Positions 24,307 to 58,892 of a stretch of 64,000 bases of DNA are shown here, in pieces. Location of the stretch: positions 1 to 64,000 of the forward strand of contig PIUA01000027.1 of NCBI GenBank assembly GCA_017577405.1, read 5' to 3'. Position 1 is the stretch's first letter. Every line of letters starts with the position of its first letter. Source of the stretch: Bacillota bacterium. GTDB lineage: Bacteria; Bacillota; Limnochordia; Limnochordales; Limnochordaceae. Both the position numbers and the translations under genes were made by a program. A model generated the notes under the pieces. It did not search any database and was not told the origin of the DNA. It saw nothing but the letters and a program-made list of their open reading frames with translations.

Positions 24307-25071
24307 GTGGAGCGACCGGTGATCGGGCTCAGCTGCGGACGGCGGGAGGACCAGAGCCAGGCCTTTCTTCATGTGGCCTACCTGGAGGCGGTGGCGGCGG
24401 CCGGCGGCCTGCCCGTGGTGCTCCCGCCCTTGGAGCCCGGGGGGCTGGACCTGGCCCAGGTGGCCGCCGCCCTCCTGGCCCGGGTGGATGGGCTGCTCTT
24501 GACGGGCGGCGATGACCTGGATCCCCGGCACTACGGCCAAGAGCCCGACCCCCGGCTGGGCTGGGTGGATCCGGATCGGGACGCGCTGGAGCTGGCCTTG
24601 GCCCAGGAGGCCCTCCGGCGCCGGACGCCGCTCCTGGCCATCTGCCGGGGTGTTCAGGTGCTCAACGTGGCCGCTGGGGGCGACCTCCACCAGGATCTGG
24701 GCGAGGTCGCCCGCCTCCAGCACAGCCAGCGGGCGCCCCGCTGGCACCGGAGCCACCCCGTTCGGGTCCACCCCGGCTCCCGGCTGGCCCAGCTCTTGGA
24801 CACGCCGGGCGGTGAGGTGGTTGTCAACAGCTTCCATCACCAGGCGGTCCGCCAGGTGGCCCCCGGGTTCCGGGCGGTGGCCCACGCCAGCGACGGGGTG
24901 GTGGAGGCCATCGAGCGGGCTGGGGAGGACCACTTCTGCGTGGGGGTCCAGTGGCACCCGGAGCACCTGGTGGGCCGGTGGCCCGAGCAGCGGGGGCTCT
25001 TCCGGGGGCTGGTGGAGGCGGCCCGGGTTGCGGCGGCACCGCACCGCGGTGAGAGGGGCATCATTCCGTAA
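24307..25071 (+). CDS. Gamma-glutamyl-gamma-aminobutyrate hydrolase family protein (class I GATase, PuuD-like)
   Basis: Intact nucleophile 'LLAICRGVQVLNVAAGG' and 'VGVQWHPEHL'. Confidence 0.93.
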   Translation: MERPVIGLSCGRREDQSQAFLHVAYLEAVAAAGGLPVVLPPLEPGGLDLAQVAAALLARVDGLLLTGGDDLDPRHYGQEPDPRLGWVDPDRDALELALAQEALRRRTPLLAICRGVQVLNVAAGGDLHQDLGEVARLQHSQRAPRWHRSHPVRVHPGSRLAQLLDTPGGEVVVNSFHHQAVRQVAPGFRAVAHASDGVVEAIERAGEDHFCVGVQWHPEHLVGRWPEQRGLFRGLVEAARVAAAPHRGERGIIP

Positions 25072-34282: not shown

Positions 34283-34831
34283 TTGGATTCGGATATCAGG
34301 GAGATTCTGGTCGACGAGCAGCAGATCGCCCGCCGGGTGAAGGAGCTGGGGGAGGAGATCAGCCGGGATTACGCTGGCCGTCCCCTGGTCCTGGTCTGCA
34401 TCTTGCGCGGGGCCGTGGTCTTCATGGCCGATCTGTTGCGCGCCATCACCATTCCGGTCACCATCGACTTCATGGCCATTTCCAGTTACGGGAACAACGT
34501 TCGCAGCAGCGGCGTGGTCCGGATCCTGAAGGACCTGGATGGGAGCATCGAGGGGAAGGATGTCCTGATCGTCGAGGACATCATCGACTCGGGGCTCACC
34601 TTGGCCTACCTCCTGGAGAACCTCCGCTCCCGCCGGCCCAACTCCTTGGAGGTCTGCGTCCTCCTGGACAAGCAGGTGCCCCGGAAGGCGTCCCTGCCCA
34701 TCCGCTATACAGGCTTCACCATTCCCGATGCCTTCGTGGTGGGGTACGGCCTGGACTACGCGGAGAAGTACCGGAACCTGCCCTACGTGGGCATCCTCAA
34801 GCCTGAGGTCTACTCGGAGGTTCAGTCCTGA
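34283..34831 (+). CDS. hpt: Hypoxanthine phosphoribosyltransferase
   Basis: PRPP loop 'VLIVEDIIDSGLTLAYLLE', 'ILRGAVVFMADLLRAI'; TTG start. Confidence 0.96.
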   Translation: MDSDIREILVDEQQIARRVKELGEEISRDYAGRPLVLVCILRGAVVFMADLLRAITIPVTIDFMAISSYGNNVRSSGVVRILKDLDGSIEGKDVLIVEDIIDSGLTLAYLLENLRSRRPNSLEVCVLLDKQVPRKASLPIRYTGFTIPDAFVVGYGLDYAEKYRNLPYVGILKPEVYSEVQS

Positions 34832-36399
34832 TGGGTCCTGCCTGTGGGGAGGCGGCCGCGGCCCGGGCGGAGCGGGTCCTGGTTCTGGACGTGGGGGGGC
34901 GGGCGGCCTCCCTCATCGCCCGCCGGGTCCGGCAGGCCCAGGTCTACTCCCAGGTGGTGCCGGCCAGCACACCGGCGGCGGAGCTCCTGGCCCTTCAGCC
35001 CAAGGGGCTGATCCTGGCCGGCGAGGCCGGGCTGGAACCCGACTCCGACACGGTCCGTCTCGACCCCGAGCTCCTGAGCTCGGGTCTTCCTCTTTTGGCC
35101 ATCGGGGCCGGGCTTCTGGCCGTGCTCCGGGAGCTGGGCGGCGGGCTGGAGGCGGCCGGCGGACTGGACGGGCCGCAGCCTGTGCGGATCCTCCATGGGT
35201 CCGACCTCCTCCACGGCCTGGAGCCCGACGAACCGTGGACCGTTCCCGTGATGCCCGCTGGCCAGCGGATTGTGCCGCCCCCGGGGTTGGAGGTGATCGC
35301 CACCGCCGGGGACCGACCCGTCGCGTTCCGCCACCGGGAGCGGCCCTTCTTTGGGCTGGCCGTCCACCCTGGAAGGCTCGCTGAGCCCCCAGGGGAGAGC
35401 CTCCTCCGCAACTTCCTCTTCCGGGTCTGCGGCCTTCAGGGCCGCTGGCAGATGCGGGCCTACCTGGAGGAGCAGGTGGCCGCCCTGCGGGCGCGCATCG
35501 GGGGGGAACGGGTCATCCTCGGCCTGAGCGGCGGGGTGGACTCGACGGTCACCGCCGCGCTCCTCCACCGGGCGGTGGGGGACCAGCTCACCTGCATCTT
35601 CGTGGATCACGGCCTCCTCCGGGAAGGGGAGGTGGAGGCGGTCCGGGAGGCCTTCCGGTTCCTGGGGGACCGGCTGGTGGTGGTGGACGCGGCCCAGCGG
35701 TTCCTGGCCCGCCTCGCGGGGGTGACCGATCCCGAAGAGAAGCGCCGCCGGATCGGCAACGAGTTTATCCGGGTCTTTGAAGAGGAAGCGCGGAAGCTGG
35801 GGCCCGTCCGGTTCCTCGCCCAAGGGACCATCTACCCGGATGTCATCGAAAGCGGCGGGCCCGGCGGGAAGGACGGCCCGGTCATCAAGAGCCACCACAA
35901 TGTGGGCGGCCTGCCGGAGCGCTTGGCCATGGAGCTGGTGGAGCCCCTGCGGGAGCTCTTCAAGGATGAGGTGCGGGAGCTGGGCCGGGAGCTGGGCCTG
36001 CCCCCGGCGCTGATCGACCGCCACCCCTTCCCCGGTCCGGGGTTGGCGGTGCGGATCGTGGGGCCGGTGGAGCCCCAGGCGCTGGCCATTGTCCGCCGGG
36101 CCGACGCCATCGTGCGGGAGGAGCTGGAGAGGGCCGGCCTCCTCCAGGACGTGTGGCAGGCCTTCGCCGTGTTGACCCCCATCCGGACGGTGGGGATGCG
36201 GGACGGCCAGCGGACCTACGGCTCCCTGGTGGCGGTCCGGGTTGTCCACAGCGTCGATGCCATGACGGCGACCTGGGTGCCCCTACCCCACGAGGTGCTG
36301 GCCCGGATCTCGAGCCGGATCACCGACGAGATCCCGGAGGTCAACCGGGTGGTGTACGACATCACCTCCAAGCCGCCCGGGACCATCGAGTGGGAGTAA
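34831..36399 (+). CDS. guaA: GMP synthase with intact ATP-pyrophosphatase/dimerisation half and degenerate glutaminase half
   Basis: 'VILGLSGGVDSTVTAALLHRAVGDQLTCIFVDHGLLREGE', 'DRHPFPGPGLAVRI', C-terminal 'PPGTIEWE'; the N-terminal GATase lacks the catalytic Cys and Glu. Confidence 0.95.
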   Translation: MGPACGEAAAARAERVLVLDVGGRAASLIARRVRQAQVYSQVVPASTPAAELLALQPKGLILAGEAGLEPDSDTVRLDPELLSSGLPLLAIGAGLLAVLRELGGGLEAAGGLDGPQPVRILHGSDLLHGLEPDEPWTVPVMPAGQRIVPPPGLEVIATAGDRPVAFRHRERPFFGLAVHPGRLAEPPGESLLRNFLFRVCGLQGRWQMRAYLEEQVAALRARIGGERVILGLSGGVDSTVTAALLHRAVGDQLTCIFVDHGLLREGEVEAVREAFRFLGDRLVVVDAAQRFLARLAGVTDPEEKRRRIGNEFIRVFEEEARKLGPVRFLAQGTIYPDVIESGGPGGKDGPVIKSHHNVGGLPERLAMELVEPLRELFKDEVRELGRELGLPPALIDRHPFPGPGLAVRIVGPVEPQALAIVRRADAIVREELERAGLLQDVWQAFAVLTPIRTVGMRDGQRTYGSLVAVRVVHSVDAMTATWVPLPHEVLARISSRITDEIPEVNRVVYDITSKPPGTIEWE

Positions 36400-36423: not shown

Positions 36424-37767
36424 GTGAGCACGGAGGCCCCATCCTTCAATCGCCCGCGCATGCCCCGGGGCGTGCGCGACCTCCTTCCCGGCGAGCTCCG
36501 GGAGCTGAAGGCCCTGGAAGAACGGCTCCTCGAGGTCTTCAGCCTCTGGGGCTACCAGCCGGTCCGGACCCCTTCCTATGAATTTGAGGAAGCGCTGCTC
36601 CGGGCGGCTCCCCAGGACGACCTGTCGGGCTGGCACCAGCGCCTCTTCCGCTTCTCCGACCGGGAAGGGAACGGGCTCGCCCTGCGACCGGACATGACCA
36701 CACCCATCGCCCGCCTGGTGGCCGGACGGCTGCGGCGGGCGCCCTTGCCTCTGCGCCTCTGTTACGCCGAGAACGTCTTCCGCTACGAAGAACCCCAAGC
36801 TGGCCGGAGCCGGGAGTTCCGCCAGGCGGGGGTGGAGCTGATCGGCAGCCCCTACCCCGAGGCCGACGCGGAGGTGGTGGCCTTGGCCAGCCGCCTGCTG
36901 GAGGGGCTGGGGCTCCGGAACTTCCGCCTGGAGATTGGCCACGTGGGCTTCGTCCAGGGAGTGCTGGAAGGGCTGGGCCTGGGCCCGGAGATGGAACGGC
37001 TCCTCCGGCGGACCCTGCAGCTCCGGGATTACGTCGCCTACCAACGGCTCGTCACCTCCGCCCCCCTGCCCGACGGTCTGCGGGAGGGGCTCCTCCGGCT
37101 CCCCTCCCTCCGGGGCGGAGGCGAGGTGCTGGACCGGGCCCGGGAACTGGCCCGGACGCCCCAGGCCCAGGCCGCCCTGGCCAACCTGGAGGAGATCTGG
37201 CAGCTCTCGCGGGCCCACGGCGTGGGGGCGCACGTCAAGCTTGATCTGGCCCTGGTCCGGGATGTGAGCTACTACACGGGCATGGTGCTGGAGGGCCTGG
37301 TGGAGGATGTGGGCTACCTCTTGGTGACCGGGGGGCGGTACGACGACCTGGTGGCCCGGTTCGGCCGGCCCTTGCCCGCCACCGGTTTTGCCGTCGGGTT
37401 GGAGCGGCTCCTGCTGGCGCTGGAGCGCCAGGGTGTCTGGGGCCTGCCCCCCGCCTCAGGCCCCCTCTTCATCACCTTTGACCCCGCCCGGCGGGAGGAG
37501 GCGCTGGCGGCGGCCGCCCGGCTCCGGGAGGGGGGCTGTCCCGTCGAAGTCGAGGTCTCCCGCCGGGACGAGGTGGCCCAGCGAGGCTACGCCCGCCAGA
37601 GGCGGGTGCGGCTCTGGGCCCGCTTCCTGGAGGGTGAGCGGGGCATGGTCCGCGTGGAGCCGCTGGATGACGAGGCTGGCTCGAGGGTGAAACCCGTGGC
37701 CGAGTGGGTGGCCGAGGTGCTCCGAGCCCGGGAGGAGGGGGTGACCGCCGGTGGACGGGCGCGCTGA
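36424..37767 (+). CDS. hisZ: ATP phosphoribosyltransferase regulatory subunit HisZ
   Basis: HisS-like 'GVRDLLPGE...LEERLLEVFSLWGYQPVRTPSYEFEE', lacks an anticodon-binding domain, next to short-form hisG. Confidence 0.92.
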   Translation: MSTEAPSFNRPRMPRGVRDLLPGELRELKALEERLLEVFSLWGYQPVRTPSYEFEEALLRAAPQDDLSGWHQRLFRFSDREGNGLALRPDMTTPIARLVAGRLRRAPLPLRLCYAENVFRYEEPQAGRSREFRQAGVELIGSPYPEADAEVVALASRLLEGLGLRNFRLEIGHVGFVQGVLEGLGLGPEMERLLRRTLQLRDYVAYQRLVTSAPLPDGLREGLLRLPSLRGGGEVLDRARELARTPQAQAALANLEEIWQLSRAHGVGAHVKLDLALVRDVSYYTGMVLEGLVEDVGYLLVTGGRYDDLVARFGRPLPATGFAVGLERLLLALERQGVWGLPPASGPLFITFDPARREEALAAAARLREGGCPVEVEVSRRDEVAQRGYARQRRVRLWARFLEGERGMVRVEPLDDEAGSRVKPVAEWVAEVLRAREEGVTAGGRAR

Positions 37768-38440
37768 ACCCCCAGCGCCGGGCCCGGCGCCCAGGGGCCG
37801 GCCCATCACCCTCGCCCTGCCCAAGGGTCGCCTCCTGGAGGAGGCGGCGCCCCTCCTCGCCCAGGCGGGCTTGCCCGCGCCGGACGACCCGGGCCGGCAA
37901 CTCCGGGTGGAGAAGGACGGCTGGGTCTACCTCCTGGTCCGCCCCGCGGACGTGCCCACCTACGTGGAGTACGGCGCCGCGGACCTGGGGCTGGTGGGGA
38001 AAGACGTCCTCCTGGAGCAGGAGCCGGCGGTGGCCGAGGTGGCCGACCTGGGCTTCGGCGCCTGCCGGTTGGTGGTGGCCGTCCCGGAAGGATCGGCCAT
38101 CACGGAGATCGACGAGCTGGACTTCCACTCCCGGGTGGCCACCAAGTACCCCCGCATCGCGGCCCAGTTTTTCGAGGAACAGGGTTTGGCTGTTGAACTG
38201 ATTACCCTGAAAGGATCCATCGAGCTGGCGCCGGCCATGGGGCTGGCCGATGCCATCCTGGACCTGACCCAGACGGGCCGGACCCTGGAGGCCAACCGGC
38301 TCCGGGTGATCGCCCAGGTGGCCGAGAGCACCGCCCGACTCATCGCCAATCCGGTCCGCCTCCGGCTGCGGGAGGCGGAGCTGGCCCCCTGGCTGGCCCG
38401 GATCGAGGCGGCCGCCCGCGGAGGAGGGGAGCAGCCGTGA
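37751..38440 (+). CDS. hisG: ATP phosphoribosyltransferase catalytic subunit (short form)
   Basis: 'ITLALPKGRLLEEAAPLL', 'YGAADLGLVGKDVL', 'GLADAILDLTQTGRTLEANRL'. Confidence 0.96.
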   Translation: MDGRAEPPAPGPAPRGRPITLALPKGRLLEEAAPLLAQAGLPAPDDPGRQLRVEKDGWVYLLVRPADVPTYVEYGAADLGLVGKDVLLEQEPAVAEVADLGFGACRLVVAVPEGSAITEIDELDFHSRVATKYPRIAAQFFEEQGLAVELITLKGSIELAPAMGLADAILDLTQTGRTLEANRLRVIAQVAESTARLIANPVRLRLREAELAPWLARIEAAARGGGEQP

Positions 38441-39837
38441 GCCTTTTGGAACGGTGGGAGAGCTGGAACACGTCTTGGGATCGCCTGGTGGCCGCCCTTC
38501 GGCGGCCGCCTTTGGAGGCGCTGGCCCGCCAGCCCCTGCCCGGCGGGGAGGAGCTGTTCGGCCGGGCGGTCACCACCCAGGAGGGGGTCCGGGCCATCCT
38601 GGATGAGGTGCGAGACGAAGGGCTGCCCGCCCTCCTCCGCTGGACGGAGCGGTTGGACGGGGCCCGGCTGGGGCCTGAGGCCGTATGGGTCTCGCCGGAC
38701 GAGCTGGAGGCGGCCCGGCGCCAGGTCTCCCCGGCCCTGCTCGCCCGCATCAGGCTGGCCAAGGAACGGATCGAGGCCTTCCACCGGGCCGAGCCGGTGG
38801 CCCGCTCCTGGCACCAGGTGGATGAGACGGGGCTCCTCTTGGGCCAGCAGGTCCGGCCTGTCCGGCGGGCGGGGCTCTACGTGCCGGGTGGCCGGGCGCC
38901 TCTTTTCTCCAGCCTCCTCATGGGGGCGGTCCCCGCCCGGGTGGCGGGGGTGGAGGAGATCATCGTCGCCACCCCGCCCCGGCCCGACGGGAGCATCCAC
39001 CCGGCCATCCTGGCCGCGGCTGCGGAAGCGGGGGTCACCCAGATCCTCCGGGCAGGCGGGGCCCAAGGGGTGGGCGCGCTGGCCTATGGCCTGCCCGGGG
39101 TGCTGGAGCCGGTGGAGCTGATCGTGGGGCCGGGCAACCTCTTCGTCACCCTGGCCAAGCGGGAGGTCTTCGGCCAGGTGGGCATCGACGGGCTCCCCGG
39201 TCCCAGCGAGGTGCTGGTGGTGGCCGACGACGGGGCCAACCCCCACTGGGTGGCCGCCGATCTTCTTGCCCAGGCGGAGCACGATCCCCAGGCCTCCGCG
39301 GTTCTCATCACCCCCAGTGCGCCCCTCCTGGAGGCGGTGGAGGGCGCCCTTCGCCGGCAGCTGGCGGAACTCCCCGCCCCCAACGGGGCGGTGGCCCGGG
39401 AGGCCCTCCAGCGCTGGGGGAAGGCCCTCCTCTGCCGGGACCTGGAGGAGGCCGTCACCTGGGCGGGGCGCCTCGCGCCCGAGCACCTGGAGCTGGCCGT
39501 TGCCGACCCCTGGCGCTGGGTGGGGATGGTGGAGTCGGCGGGGGCCATCTTCCTAGGCCACTGGTCGAGCGAGCCCCTAGGCGACTACCTGGCGGGGCCG
39601 GACCATATCCTGCCCACCAACGGCGCGGCCCGGTTCAGCTCGGGCCTGAGCGTCCAGACCTTCCTCAAGCGGACCAGCCTGGTGGCCTACACCCGGGAGG
39701 CCCTCCGGCGGGATGGGCCCCCGGTGGTCCAGCTGGCCCGGGCCGAGGGGCTGGAGGCTCACGCCCGGGCAGTGGCCCTCCGCCTGGAGGCCCAGGGGGT
39801 GGCGGGCGAGGCCCAGGAAAAGGAGGCGGAAGGATGA
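38437..39837 (+). CDS. hisD: Histidinol dehydrogenase
   Basis: 'GLYVPGGRAPLFSSLLMGAVPARVAGV', 'DGLPGPSEVLVVADDGANPHWVAADLLAQAEHD', 'HILPTNGAARFSSGLSVQTFLK'. Confidence 0.97.
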   Translation: MSLLERWESWNTSWDRLVAALRRPPLEALARQPLPGGEELFGRAVTTQEGVRAILDEVRDEGLPALLRWTERLDGARLGPEAVWVSPDELEAARRQVSPALLARIRLAKERIEAFHRAEPVARSWHQVDETGLLLGQQVRPVRRAGLYVPGGRAPLFSSLLMGAVPARVAGVEEIIVATPPRPDGSIHPAILAAAAEAGVTQILRAGGAQGVGALAYGLPGVLEPVELIVGPGNLFVTLAKREVFGQVGIDGLPGPSEVLVVADDGANPHWVAADLLAQAEHDPQASAVLITPSAPLLEAVEGALRRQLAELPAPNGAVAREALQRWGKALLCRDLEEAVTWAGRLAPEHLELAVADPWRWVGMVESAGAIFLGHWSSEPLGDYLAGPDHILPTNGAARFSSGLSVQTFLKRTSLVAYTREALRRDGPPVVQLARAEGLEAHARAVALRLEAQGVAGEAQEKEAEG

Positions 39838-40547
39838 GGGAGACCGGGCGGGAGCCGGCCCGCCAGGCGGCCTACCAGCGGGCGACCCGGGAGACCCAGA
39901 TCCGGGTGGTCCTCAACCTGGACGGCAAGGGTAAGGCGGCCGTCACCACCGGGGTGGGCTTCTTCGACCACATGCTGGAGAGCTTCGCCCGGCACGGGCT
40001 CTTTGACCTGACGGTGGAGGCCCAGGGGGACCTCCACGTGGACGCGCACCACACCGTGGAGGATGTGGGCCTCTGCCTTGGGGAGGCCTTCCGCCGGGCC
40101 GTGGGGGAGGGCCGGGGGATCCGGCGGTTCGGCGAGGCGACCATCCCCATGGATGAGGCCCTGGTCCGGGCGGTGGTGGACCTGTCGGGCCGGCCGTACC
40201 TGGTCTGCCGCCTGGCCTTGCAGGGGCCCCGGCTGGGGACCATGGAGACCCAGCTGGTGCCCGAGTTCTTCCGGGCCCTGGCCACCCGGGGCGGCTTCGC
40301 CCTCCACATCCACCAGCTGGAGGGGGAGAACGACCACCACGTGGTGGAGGCGGCCTTCAAGGCCGTCGCCCGGGCCTTGGACCAGGCGACAGGCTTGGAC
40401 CCTCGGGTGGAAGGGGTGCCCTCCACCAAGGGGCGCCTGGTGGACGACGAGGAGGCGGGTGGCCTTCCAGGCCCGGCCCCAGCCGCTGGTTCCCAACCGG
40501 CACCGGAGTCCCATCCCGGGGCGGGGGGTGGGGGCCCGTGGAGCTGA
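39834..40547 (+). CDS. hisB: Imidazoleglycerol-phosphate dehydratase with about 40 aa low-complexity C-terminal tail
   Basis: 'GVGFFDHMLESFARHG', 'DLHVDAHHTVEDVG', 'ENDHHVVEAAFKAVARAL', 'PSTKG'. Confidence 0.96.
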   Translation: MRETGREPARQAAYQRATRETQIRVVLNLDGKGKAAVTTGVGFFDHMLESFARHGLFDLTVEAQGDLHVDAHHTVEDVGLCLGEAFRRAVGEGRGIRRFGEATIPMDEALVRAVVDLSGRPYLVCRLALQGPRLGTMETQLVPEFFRALATRGGFALHIHQLEGENDHHVVEAAFKAVARALDQATGLDPRVEGVPSTKGRLVDDEEAGGLPGPAPAAGSQPAPESHPGAGGGGPWS

Positions 40548-41278
40548 TCCCCGCCATCGACCTGCGGGAGGGCCGGGTGGTCCGGCTGGTCCAGGGGGCG
40601 TTCCACCAGGAGCACCGCTACCCCCTGGACCCGGTGGAGGCGGCCCGCCAGTGGGTGGCCGCGGGGGCCCAGCGCCTCCACCTGGTGGACCTGGACGGCG
40701 CCCGCTCAGGCGCGGCTCCCGGCGCCACGCCCAACGGCCAGGCGGTCGCCCGGGTCTGCCAGGCGGTGGCGGTGCCCGTCCAGCTGGGCGGGGGCATCCG
40801 GAGCCTGGAGGCGGCCCAGGCGGCCCTGGCCCTGGGGGTGGAGCGGGTCATCTTGGGGACGGTGGTGGTCCGGGCGCCCGAAAGGGCGGCCCGGATCCTT
40901 GAGGCCCTGGGCGGCCGGGCGTGGGTCTCCCTCGACCTGCGGGAGGGCCGGCTGGCGGTGGCCGGCTGGGAGGAGGAGGGGGAGCAGGACGGCCTGGCCA
41001 TCGCCCGCTGGGCGCGCGAGGCGGGGGCCGGGGGCCTGGTGGTGACCGCGGTGGGGCGGGATGGGACCCTGGCCGGGCCCGATCTGGAGACCTTGAGGCC
41101 GTTTTTGGGTTTGGGGCTGCCTGTTGTGGCGGCGGGTGGGGTGGGCCGGTTGGAGCACCTCCGCCAGCTGAAAGCCCTCGAACCTATGGGCCTCACCGGT
41201 GTCATTGTGGGGCGGGCGCTTTACGAGGGCTGCTTGACCTTGGAGGAGGCCCTGGAGGTGGTGGCCGGTGCGGGTTAA
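40538..41278 (+). CDS. hisA: HisA, ProFAR isomerase
   Basis: '[18 protein letters not shown]', '[13 protein letters not shown]', '[16 protein letters not shown]'. Confidence 0.96.
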
Positions 41279-42818
41279 GCGGGTCATCCCCTGCCTCGAT
41301 GTGGCGGGCGGCCGAGTGATGAAGGGGGTCCACTTCGCCAACCTGCGGGATGCCGGGGACCCGGTGGAGCTCGCCCTGCGCTACGACCAGGCGGGCGCGG
41401 ACGAGCTGGTCTTCCTCGACATCTCCGCCACCCCGGAGGGCCGGGCCACCCGCCTCGACTGGGTCCGGGCGGTGGCTCAGAAGCTCTCCATCCCCTTCAC
41501 CGTGGGCGGCGGCATCAGCAGCTTGGAGGCCATCGAGGCGGTGCTCCAGGCGGGCGCCGACAAGGTGGTCCTCAACACCGCGGCGGTGGCCCAGCCGGTT
41601 CTGGTCCGGGAGGCGGCTGAGCGCTTCGGCAGCGCCCGGATCGTCGTCGCCATTGACGCCCGGCGGGTGGCCGGCGGGGATCGGGACGGGACGCCCCGGT
41701 GGGAAGTGGTCACCCACGGGGGACGGGAGGCTGCGGGGCTGGAGCCCGTCGCCTGGGCCCGGGTGGTGGAGGCGCTGGGCGCGGGCGAGATCCTCCTCAC
41801 CAGCATGGATGCCGACGGGACCCAGGCCGGCTACGACCTGGAGCTGACCCGGGCGGTGGCCCGGGCGGTCCGGATCCCTGTCATTGCCTCGGGTGGGGCG
41901 GGGACCTTGGAGCACCTCCGGGCGGCCCTTCAAGAGGGGGAGGCGGACGGGGTCCTGGCCGCCTCCATCTTCCACGACGGACGGCACACGGTGGCCGAGG
42001 CCAAGGCGTACCTGGCCCAGGCGGGGGTGCCCGTTCGTCACGGGATCCCTTCAACGGAGGAAGGGTTGGCCGGCGGGCTCCGCTTCGGGCCCGACGGGTT
42101 GATCCCGGTGGTGGTCCAGTCGGCTGGCGAGGACCAGGCGGTCTTGATGCTGGCCTACATGAACCGGGAAGCCCTCCAGAAGACCCTGGCCACGGGCACC
42201 ACCTGGTTTTGGAGCCGCTCCCGCCAGGAGCTCTGGCCCAAGGGGGCGACCTCAGGCAACCGCCAGCGGGTGGTGGAGGTGCGGGCCGATTGCGACCGGG
42301 ACGCCCTTCTGGTCCGGGTGGCCCAGGAGGGCACCGGCGCCTGCCACACCGGGGCGTGGAGCTGCTTCCACCAGCCCCTCCCGACCCCAGCGCAAGAGGG
42401 GGAGGCCGGTCCCGAGGAGGCCAGGGGGGCTGGGGACCCAGGGACGGCTGGCGTCGGAACTCCCGACGGGGCTCGGGGCGCGGCCGAAGGCCCCTTGGCT
42501 TCCGGGCCCGTCACCCTGCCGCGGCTTCTGGAGGTGGTCCGGGACCGCCAGGCCCGGCCCCGCCCCGGCTCCTACACCACCTACCTCTTCGAGCAAGGCC
42601 TGGACAAGATCCTGAAGAAGGTGGGCGAGGAGGCGACGGAGGTGGTGGTCGCCGCCAAGAACGGCGACCGGGACGGGCTGGTGGGCGAGATCGGCGACCT
42701 CCTCTACCACCTGGCCGTCCTCATGGTGGAGCGGGGGGTGGGCCTGGAACAGGTGGAGGCGGAGCTTACCCGCCGCCACGGCCCAGACCGGCCACCGCGG
42801 CCGCCCCGGCCCCGCTGA
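41268..42818 (+). CDS. HisF-HisI-HisE trifunctional fusion (IGP synthase cyclase, PRA-CH, PRA-PH)
   Basis: HisF '[18 protein letters not shown]...AIDARR...[20 protein letters not shown]'; HisI 'GLIPVVVQ...[12 protein letters not shown]...[27 protein letters not shown]'; HisE '[29 protein letters not shown]'; one ORF without stops. Confidence 0.96.
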
Positions 42819-53472: not shown

Positions 53473-55903
<2,431 letters not shown>

Positions 55904-55907
<4 letters not shown>

Positions 55908-57418
55908 TGGAGATCCTGCAGCATGCCCACGAACTGGCGGAGCGGCTCGAGCGGCGGGAGATCTCGGCTGAAGAGGTGACCCAAGCCTACTTGGACCGGA
56001 TGGAGCGGCTGGAGCCCCATGTGCACGCCTTCCTCGCCCGGACCCCTGAGCAGGCCCTGGCGACGGCCCGGGAGGTGGACCGGCGCCGGGCCCAGGGGGA
56101 GCCCGTCCACCCCCTGGCGGGGATCCCCGTGGCGGTGAAGGACAACCTCTGTACCGAAGGGGTGCCCACCACCGCCGGCTCCCGGGCGCTGGAGAACTTC
56201 CGGCCGCCCTACAGCGCCACCGCGGTGGCCCGGCTCCATGAGGCAGGCCTGCCCTTGGTGGGGAAGACCAACCTGGATGAGTTTGCTATGGGCGCCTCCA
56301 CCGAGGCGTCGGCCTTCGGCCCCACCCGGAACCCCTGGGACCGGGAGCGGGTGCCCGGGGGCTCCAGCGGCGGCTCGGCCGCGGCGGTGGCGGCTGGCCA
56401 GGTGCCCTGGGCCCTGGGGAGCGACACGGGGGGCAGCATCCGCCAGCCCGCGGCCTTCTGCGGGGTGGTGGGCCTGAAGCCCAGCTACGGGCGTGTCTCC
56501 CGGTACGGGCTCATCCCCTTCGCGTCCTCTTTGGACCAGGTGGGGATCCTCACCCGGGACGTGACCGACGCGGCCCACCTCCTGGAGGTGCTTGCCGGCC
56601 ACGATCTGGCCGACTCCACCTCGGTGGACGCGCCGGTGCCCGCCTACCGGAAGGCACTCCAGGCTGAGCCCCGGGGCCTGCGGATCGGCCTGCCCGTCCA
56701 GTTCTTCGGGGATCAGATCGACCCGGCGGTGCGGCAGGCGGTCCGCCAGGCGGTGGACCGGATGGCCGAAGCGGGGGCCGAGGTGGTGGAGCTCTCCCTC
56801 CCCACGGTGGAGCACGCCCTGGCCTGCTACTTGGTTCTCGCCCCGGCAGAGGCCAGTTCCAACCTGGGCCGCTACGACGGGGTCCGGTACGGGTTCCGGG
56901 CCCAGCCCGACGGCCGGCCGGCCAAGGACGTGACTGAGATGTTCCTGGCCACCCGGGGGGAGGGCCTGGGCCTCGAGGTGAAGCGGCGGATCCTTTTGGG
57001 CACCTACGTGCTTTCGGCCGGCGCCTACCAGACGTACTACCTCCAGGCCCTCAAGGTCCGGACCCTGATCCGCCAGGACTTCGAACGGGCGTTCGAGCAG
57101 GTGGACGTGCTGGCGACGCCCACCACGCCCACCACCGCCTTCCGCCTCGGGGAGCGGCTGGAACGTCCCATGCGCATGTACCAGAGCGACCTGTGCACGG
57201 TGCCCGTCAACCTGGCGGGCCTGCCGGCCATCTCCCTGCCCTGCGGTCAGGACGCCGGCGGGCTGCCGGTGGGCCTCCAGCTTATCGGCCGCTATCTGGA
57301 TGAGGCGGGGCTCTTGCGGGCGGCCTACGCCTTCGAGCAGGTGGCAGGCTGCCGGGCGGCGGTGCCGCCTCTGGCCCACCTGGGGACCGGCGCAGGGGAG
57401 GTGACCATCCATGGCTGA
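55904..57418 (+). CDS. gatA: Asp/Glu-tRNA amidotransferase subunit A
   Basis: Amidase signature 'PGGSSGGSAAAVAAG...GSDTGGSIRQPAAFCGVVGLKPSYGRVSRYG' and 'VAVKDNLCTEG'. Confidence 0.98.
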
Positions 57419-58892
57419 GGCTCAGCTGGAGATGTTGGATCTGGGGGATCTGGAGGCGGTCATCGGCCTGGAAGTCCACGTGGAGCTGGCCACCCAGTCC
57501 AAGCTCTTCTGCGGCTGCGCCACCACCTTCGGGGCGCCCCCCAACACCCAGGTCTGCCCCGTCTGCCTGGGCTTGCCGGGGACCCTCCCCGTCTTGAACG
57601 CGCGGGCGGTGGAGTACGCGGTGAAGGCGGGGCTCGCCCTGGGCTGCCAGATCACCGAGCGGAGCCTCTTCGCCCGGAAGAACTACTTCTACCCGGACCT
57701 GCCCAAGGCGTATCAAATCTCCCAGCACGAGCGGCCCCTCTGCCGGAACGGGGCGGTTACCATCACGACACCCGAGGGGCTCCGCAGGATCGGCATCGTC
57801 CGGGTCCACCTGGAGGAGGAGGCGGGCAAGCTGGTCCACTCGGGGGACAGCATCATCGGCTCGGAAGCGACTCATGTGGACTACAACCGGGCGGGCATCC
57901 CCCTCATCGAGATCGTCACCGCCCCTGACCTGCGGAGTCCCGAGGAGGCCCGCCTCTTCCTGGAGGAGCTCCGGACCATCCTGCGGTACATCGGCGTCTC
58001 CGACGTGCGCATGGAAGAGGGCTCCCTCCGTTGCGACGCCAACATCTCCCTCCGCCCCAAGGGTTCAACGGCGCTGGGGACCAAGACGGAAGTGAAGAAC
58101 ATGAACTCCTTCCGGGCGGTGGTCCGGGCCCTCACCTACGAGGCCCAGCGCCAGGCGGAGGTGATCCGCAGCGGGGAGGCGGTTCGGCCTGAGACCCGGG
58201 CCTGGGATGAAGCCCGGCAGGTGACGGTGGCCATGCGGGCCAAGGAGGAGGCCGACGACTACCGGTACTTCACCGAGCCCGACCTGGTCCCCCTGGTCCT
58301 CACCCAGGAGCGAATCGAGGGCTGGCGGGCCGAACTGCCCGAGCTCCCCGCCGCCCGGCGGGAGCGGTTCGTCGCCAGCTACGGCCTGCCCGAGTACGAC
58401 GCCTCGGTGCTCACCAGCTCCCGGCTGGTGGCCGACTTCTTCGAGGCGGTTGCCCAGGAGGTGGGTGACGCCAAGCTGGCCAGCAACTGGGTGATGGGCG
58501 AGGTCCTCCGCTGGGCCAAGACCGAGGGGGGCGAGGTGGTGGAGCTCCCCGTTTCGGTCCAAGGGCTGGCGGAGCTCTTGGGCCTCCTGCGGCAAGGGGT
58601 GATCAACCAAGCGGCGGCCAAGTCGGTCCTGGAGGAGATGGTCGCCTCGGGGCGGGGCGCCCGGGAGATCGTGGCTGAGCGGGGCCTGGAGCAGATCAGC
58701 GACCGGAGCGAGCTGGAAGCCCTCGTCGACCGGGTGATCGCCGAGAACCCCAAGCCCGTCGAGGACATCCGGGCCGGGCAGACCAAGGCCATCGGCTTCC
58801 TCATGGGCCAGGTGATGCGCCTCAGCCAGGGGAAGGCCAACCCCCAGCAGGTGCGGGAGCTCTTGCACGAGCGGCTCGGGGTCGGAGGGTAG
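57411..58892 (+). CDS. gatB: Asp/Glu-tRNA amidotransferase subunit B
   Basis: 'EAVIGLEVHVELATQSKLFCGC', 'VDYNRAGIPLIEIVT', YqeY-like C-terminal region. Confidence 0.98.
   Translation: MAEAQLEMLDLGDLEAVIGLEVHVELATQSKLFCGCATTFGAPPNTQVCPVCLGLPGTLPVLNARAVEYAVKAGLALGCQITERSLFARKNYFYPDLPKAYQISQHERPLCRNGAVTITTPEGLRRIGIVRVHLEEEAGKLVHSGDSIIGSEATHVDYNRAGIPLIEIVTAPDLRSPEEARLFLEELRTILRYIGVSDVRMEEGSLRCDANISLRPKGSTALGTKTEVKNMNSFRAVVRALTYEAQRQAEVIRSGEAVRPETRAWDEARQVTVAMRAKEEADDYRYFTEPDLVPLVLTQERIEGWRAELPELPAARRERFVASYGLPEYDASVLTSSRLVADFFEAVAQEVGDAKLASNWVMGEVLRWAKTEGGEVVELPVSVQGLAELLGLLRQGVINQAAAKSVLEEMVASGRGAREIVAERGLEQISDRSELEALVDRVIAENPKPVEDIRAGQTKAIGFLMGQVMRLSQGKANPQQVRELLHERLGVGG

Follow-up and report, generated by a model that had tools for sequence, protein, structure and literature searches.

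The GMP synthase (GuaA) encoded in a 64,000-nucleotide window of a draft genome from the class Limnochordia combines a dead glutaminase domain with an intact synthetase half, and its gene is followed directly by a histidine operon from which hisH is missing. We consider it likely that this GuaA is ammonia-dependent and forms part of a lineage-wide shift from glutamine to ammonia, with GatCAB making glutamine on tRNA. Glutamine is treated as a near-universal biosynthetic nitrogen donor; our survey of 61 Limnochordia genomes (that of the window, G000, and 60 relatives) suggests that the whole class has repeatedly switched biosynthesis from glutamine to free ammonia. G000 is a metagenome-assembled genome (MAG) of 86.4% completeness and single gene absences from it are provisional, whereas the lack of hisH at its own junction and the point lesions in guaA are direct observations despite this incompleteness. 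Coordinates below refer to the window, the whole stretch of DNA analysed, unless a contig is named. The main features of guaA are as follows.

34831..36399, forward strand: guaA, GMP synthase, single copy, 522 aa (one open frame, profile matches, genome search)
Residues about 14–205 of GuaA: GATase half; residues 206–522: ATP-PPase and C-terminal half
35446..36399, forward strand: intact synthetase half, with SGGVDS PP-loop, VIKSHHN lid loop, HPFPGPG and C-terminal KPPGTIEWE
35017..35028, forward strand: residues 63–66, Ala-Gly-Glu-Ala (AGEA) in place of the SGGP loop (alignment, codons)
35104..35106, forward strand: codon 92, GGG, by which the nucleophile Cys becomes Gly; the elbow reads LLAIGAGLLA against ILGICYGMQ
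35254..35259, forward strand: codons 142–143, Pro-Ala where the WMSHGD motif has Ser-His (alignment, codons)
35365..35373, forward strand: HPG in place of HPE, with His179 kept and Glu181 replaced by Gly (alignment, codons)

The gene is a single uninterrupted frame free of frameshifts, and the first-pass annotation had likewise seen no frameshift at the two sites that it rechecked; the coordinates given there, 34831–35460, identify the right locus and cover its N-terminal half alone. The C-terminal half scores 461.5 bits against TIGR00884 (guaA C-term, cut-off 338.75), PF00958 matches GuaA with 136 bits, and the ATP-PPase and GMP_synt_C domains are present with SGGVDS, the IKSHHN lid and the C-terminal XMP loop. 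The N-terminal half is a class I GATase by homology (PF00117, 53.7 bits, cut-off 22.8) and falls under the cut-off of TIGR00888 (guaA N-term, 87.8 bits against 172). An AlphaFold2 model of GuaA (pLDDT 81.5) has the GMP synthase 7sbc as its top PDB match (TM 0.83/0.85), and since the model most resembles whole GMP synthases the dead domain probably still folds.

GuaA residues were compared by alignment with 42 relatives, and the codons of the window were read directly. Position 92 is Cys in at least 90% of the 42 relatives and Gly in the window protein, residue 179 is the retained triad His (CAC, 35365–35367), and residue 181 is Gly (GGA, 35371–35373) where relatives carry Glu. The catalytic Cys-His-Glu triad is reduced to Gly92, His179 and Gly181. 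Codons and alignment alike confirm the earlier proposal of a dead glutaminase domain with a replaced SGGP loop and an intact synthetase half; the loss of the triad that it described extends to two of the three residues. The window protein keeps 28 of 56 GATase-half columns conserved at 90% or more, against 124 of 133 such columns in the synthetase half (9 changed). A relative of the same genus, G001, has a GuaA with a normal triad (GICYGLQ, FHPE). An intact triad displaced to another part of the N-terminal half was sought and rejected, the other conserved glutaminase motifs being lost too and the G001 alignment being nearly gap-free. Identity between the G000 and G001 proteins is 44.7% in the GATase half and 81.7% in the synthetase half, whereas G001 and ten other class members share about 55–64% and 60–68%, respectively; on these comparisons accelerated change is limited to the GATase half and to the window lineage.

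A second glutaminase lesion lies in the his operon directly 3′ of guaA, in the order hisZ-G-D-B-A-F-IE.

36424..37767, forward strand: hisZ
37751..38440, forward strand: hisG
38437..39837, forward strand: hisD
39834..40547, forward strand: hisB, overlapping hisA by 10 bases
40538..41278, forward strand: hisA
41268..42032, forward strand: hisF, cyclase subunit left as an orphan (TIGR00735 match at 41274–42038, 345.5 bits)
42035..42818, forward strand: hisIE, in an open frame common with hisF

The 10-base overlap of hisB and hisA leaves no hisH at their junction (40424–40547), 4 kb downstream of guaA, and TIGR01855 (HisH) has no match anywhere in the G000 genome. Of the two subunits of imidazole glycerol phosphate synthase, HisF is found at full length and HisH is not. 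At the same junction G001 has about 800 bp with a complete hisH (GICLGLQ, FHPE), and hisH occupies a gap of roughly 690–800 bp in G001, G002 and G015; the junction is without hisH in the window and in G013, G016, G020 and G027. The hisF and hisIE genes of the window form one continuous open frame (41268–42818, 516 aa), and a fusion is possible.

The remaining glutaminase and nitrogen genes of G000 include the following.

55602..58892, forward strand: gatCAB, tRNA-dependent amidotransferase, GatA catalytic motifs intact
55602–55907, forward strand: gatC, assigned by operon position and sequence start
55904–57418, forward strand: gatA, catalytic motifs intact
57411–58892, forward strand: gatB, assigned by operon position and sequence start
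G000:C14:146334–146720 (L171) and G000:C25:178517–178906 (L172), minus strand: asparagine synthetase-type (AsnB-type) proteins

Both AsnB-type proteins have Ser for the N-terminal nucleophile Cys (MSGIVGG, VSGIVGW) and keep LSGGLDSS; the related G001 protein starts VCGIAGW. A genome search with PF00117 gave three matches: PyrG, the dead GuaA half and a 254-aa hydrolase-like protein (24307–25071). The last has the class I GATase fold, resembles gamma-glutamyl-GABA hydrolase and has its Cys (AICRGVQ) and HPE intact. The triad of PyrG is also intact (GICLGMQ, FHPEW), which rules out that all class I GATases of G000 are dead and means that some glutamine may exist, from import or peptides. Glutamine synthetase (GlnA) went undetected in the 86.4% complete MAG.

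Could GuaA and HisF receive their ammonia in trans from a separate glutaminase, the arrangement of archaeal two-subunit GuaAa/GuaAb? The first-pass annotation had offered this as one of two sources and had called for a genome search, which returned neither a second GuaA, nor a stand-alone GuaA-type glutaminase, nor a live glutaminase subunit of the archaeal split type in G000 at 86.4% completeness. We regard supply in trans as improbable: an incomplete MAG could leave GlnA or a glutaminase unsampled, and the window does hold the class I GATase-fold protein at 24307–25071, but PF00117 finds only the three proteins above, HisH is undetected, no GlnA is detected that would supply glutamine, and relatives of 95–100% completeness show the same losses. 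The other proposed source, free NH3, is favoured because GlnA and other GuaA-like or HisH-like glutaminases are undetected and further glutaminase subunits or domains are lost or dead. Ammonia dependence of the window enzyme, as first suggested, fits all of the sequence evidence, as do a dead glutaminase and a live synthetase. With glutaminase and GlnA both undetected, direct amination by ammonia would explain GuaA, HisF and the AsnB-type proteins most simply.

Loss of the GuaA glutaminase is recurrent across the class. We found guaA in 58 of the 61 genomes, with a marginal match in G023. The gene is absent or marginal in G014, G019, G023 (family f5) and G049, which are 87–93% complete and also lack glutamine synthetase. 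Among the 57 genomes placed on a tree of the synthetase half, the GuaA triad is intact in 16 (counting G009, in whose assembly the guaA frame is interrupted) and non-intact in 41, three of which (G039, G040 and G043) run into contig ends and are only partly seen. The remaining 38 are full-length and dead (G000, G015, G016, G020, G027 and G031; G000 and G016 were so classed by reading their sequences) or shortened. The tree requires at least seven changes of GuaA glutaminase state, at least four of them forced by well supported branches. A frameshift interrupts the G009 gene (L144, G009:C2:83143-84704), whose assembly nearly matches G003 in other respects; an assembly error is likely. In G040, guaA (L121, G040:C15) ends at a contig edge and a fragment at G040:C163:7802-8086 matches the GuaA N-terminus. 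In G020, an additional GuaA N-terminus, also dead and nearly identical to the first, lies on a different contig (L101, L145; C85, C27), perhaps strain variation in the bin. In a public genome set, four of the nearest 80 relatives are non-intact, all Bacillota MAGs (L012, L028 and L048 with Cys replaced by Gly; L019 with Cys kept and HPE missing), which shows that the trait is no artefact of one collection.

The lesions of G000 might instead record the early pseudogenization of guaA and his genes in an organism that is turning into a scavenger of purines and histidine, since the G000 MAG is smaller than the G001 genome (2.25 Mb against 3.8 Mb) and some relatives have no his genes or no guaA at all. 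We think this decidedly unlikely, because the synthetase half of G000 remains 82% identical to that of G001 with its conserved columns kept as above, the his genes are full length (hisF is 79% identical to that of G001), and every lineage with a shortened GATase retains a full synthetase half. Most often, loss of the GuaA glutaminase leaves a short stub in which beta1-alpha1-beta2 and the ARxVR...VYSEI helix survive. In solved GMP synthases it is through this helix that the GATase domain contacts the synthetase domain (PMC10526850), so the surviving stub is plausibly a docking face. Retention of this contact would also suit a dead half with a new job in regulatory ligand binding or partner docking, ammonia use being incidental; as the rest of the domain erodes to varied lengths and no new conserved pocket was seen, such a role is very unlikely. 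Although G000 is a draft MAG, a sequencing or assembly artefact is scarcely credible and frameshift or mis-assembly is ruled out as the source of the lesions, given one continuous frame, many independent substitutions over the whole GATase half in a residue-by-residue alignment, and recurrence of the same lesion class in other assemblies and families.

The state of GuaA co-varies with the presence of glutamine synthetase. All 16 genomes with an intact GuaA have GlnA, none of the 28 GlnA-less genomes with guaA has an intact one, and 13 genomes have lost the GuaA glutaminase with GlnA present (Fisher 1.7e-6, kinship ignored). Excluding the three incomplete loci gives counts with and without GlnA of 16/0 for intact against 12/26 for non-intact GuaA (Fisher 1.7e-6, kinship ignored). 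HisH behaves alike among 42 genomes with hisF, being found in 20 of 25 with GlnA and 0 of 17 without (1.1e-7, kinship ignored). Tree-independent pairs provide only four to six contrasts, all in the expected direction or tied and never opposite, which is too few for significance once kinship is taken into account (p 0.125 at best). Loss of GlnA as a necessary cause is unsupported, as the 13 GlnA-bearing genomes show.

Other amidotransferases are affected too. Full-length CarB occurs without CarA in about ten genomes, and the nucleophile is replaced by Gly in CarA (G014, G016, G019, G024 and G027), by Ser or Gly in PurF (G015, G016, G024 and G027) and by Ser, Ala or Gly in PyrG (G044, G052, G056 and G057). 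The GlmS of G021 has a Ser nucleophile (L184, G021:C61; MSGVIGYVG) with GlnA still present. A dead GatA amidase was considered as well and is ruled out by motifs that are intact in GlnA-less genomes; these fit tRNA-dependent glutamine synthesis, with asparagine a possible donor.

From the observed sequence lesions, gene absences, retained partners and co-distribution we infer ammonia use, an order of events and a donor for GatCAB. Glutamine synthetase would have been lost first, or free glutamine would have been scarce and ammonia plentiful. The glutaminase modules would then have decayed or vanished (the GuaA half, HisH, CarA and the Ntn domains of AsnB, PurF and GlmS), while the amination modules (the GuaA C-half, HisF, CarB and the AsnB C-half) would have been kept and fed by ammonia, so that XMP, PrFAR and aspartate would be aminated with free ammonia. 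In GuaA, the ATP-PPase half would make adenyl-XMP, which free NH3 in solution would attack; the N-terminal domain would be a relic without catalytic activity, probably retained for its part in folding and domain docking. Glutamine would mainly be made on tRNA by GatCAB, and asparagine may be the amide donor for its intact amidase. The GMP synthases that have been studied accept external ammonia in vitro, but their Km for NH4+ lies between tens and hundreds of mM (PMC10526850); an ammonia-dependent GuaA would accordingly need high internal ammonia or a lower Km. We hold the chances to be even for the broadest form of the proposal: that lineages of this free-living class have neither glutamine as nitrogen carrier nor glutamine synthetase, have dismantled the glutaminase modules of purine, pyrimidine, histidine, asparagine and amino-sugar synthesis, use ammonia directly everywhere, and make glutamine on tRNA only, where GatCAB would draw on asparagine or ammonia.

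The window GuaA shares two-domain architecture, fold and synthetase motifs with bacterial GuaA of the E. coli 1GPM and A. baumannii 7SBC type, and differs in the loss of the glutaminase Cys, Glu and substrate-binding motifs, its relatives going on to shorten the domain to a stub. Mammalian carbamoyl-phosphate synthetase I likewise has a fused class I GATase without the nucleophile Cys beside an intact synthetase and uses free ammonia, as is predicted for the window GuaA. It is, however, one urea-cycle enzyme in an organism with glutamine synthetase, whereas the lesions described here extend to many unrelated amidotransferases and GlnA is undetected in G000. The lone ATP-PPase subunit of archaeal GuaAa/GuaAb (P. 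horikoshii, M. jannaschii) uses ammonia in vitro (PMC10526850), but that system has a live glutaminase subunit, of which none was found in G000 (86.4% complete). Ammonia-dependent NadE-type NAD synthetase carries out its amidation in vivo from ammonia, without a glutaminase (PMC3376133); it is a single enzyme family, in contrast to the genome-wide shift proposed here. Blochmannia vafer is a bacterium with natural loss of glnA, but it is an intracellular mutualist whose host has its own glutamine synthetase, and the parts of that report available to us describe no set of dead glutaminase domains (PMC3017870). Every part of our proposal has a single-enzyme precedent (carbamoyl-phosphate synthetase I, NadE, the archaeal ATP-PPase subunit), and the coordinated class-wide version would be a larger systems-level claim; a search of openly accessible literature turned up no account of a whole class moving away from glutamine.

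If true, the class would lay out glutaminase decay as a natural series in many enzymes simultaneously, with point lesions at one end, stubs in between and deletion at the other, and it would offer ready-made ammonia-only amidotransferases with which to probe why channelled ammonia is normally needed. Genome models of Limnochordia members are reported to contain numerous apparent auxotrophies for amino acids (PMC9347119), which the shift could explain, and the members are reported as abundant in high-ammonia (thermophilic) biogas digesters (PMC11932165), which would tie it to habitat (PMC11932165, PMC9347119). It would also make direct predictions for isolates.
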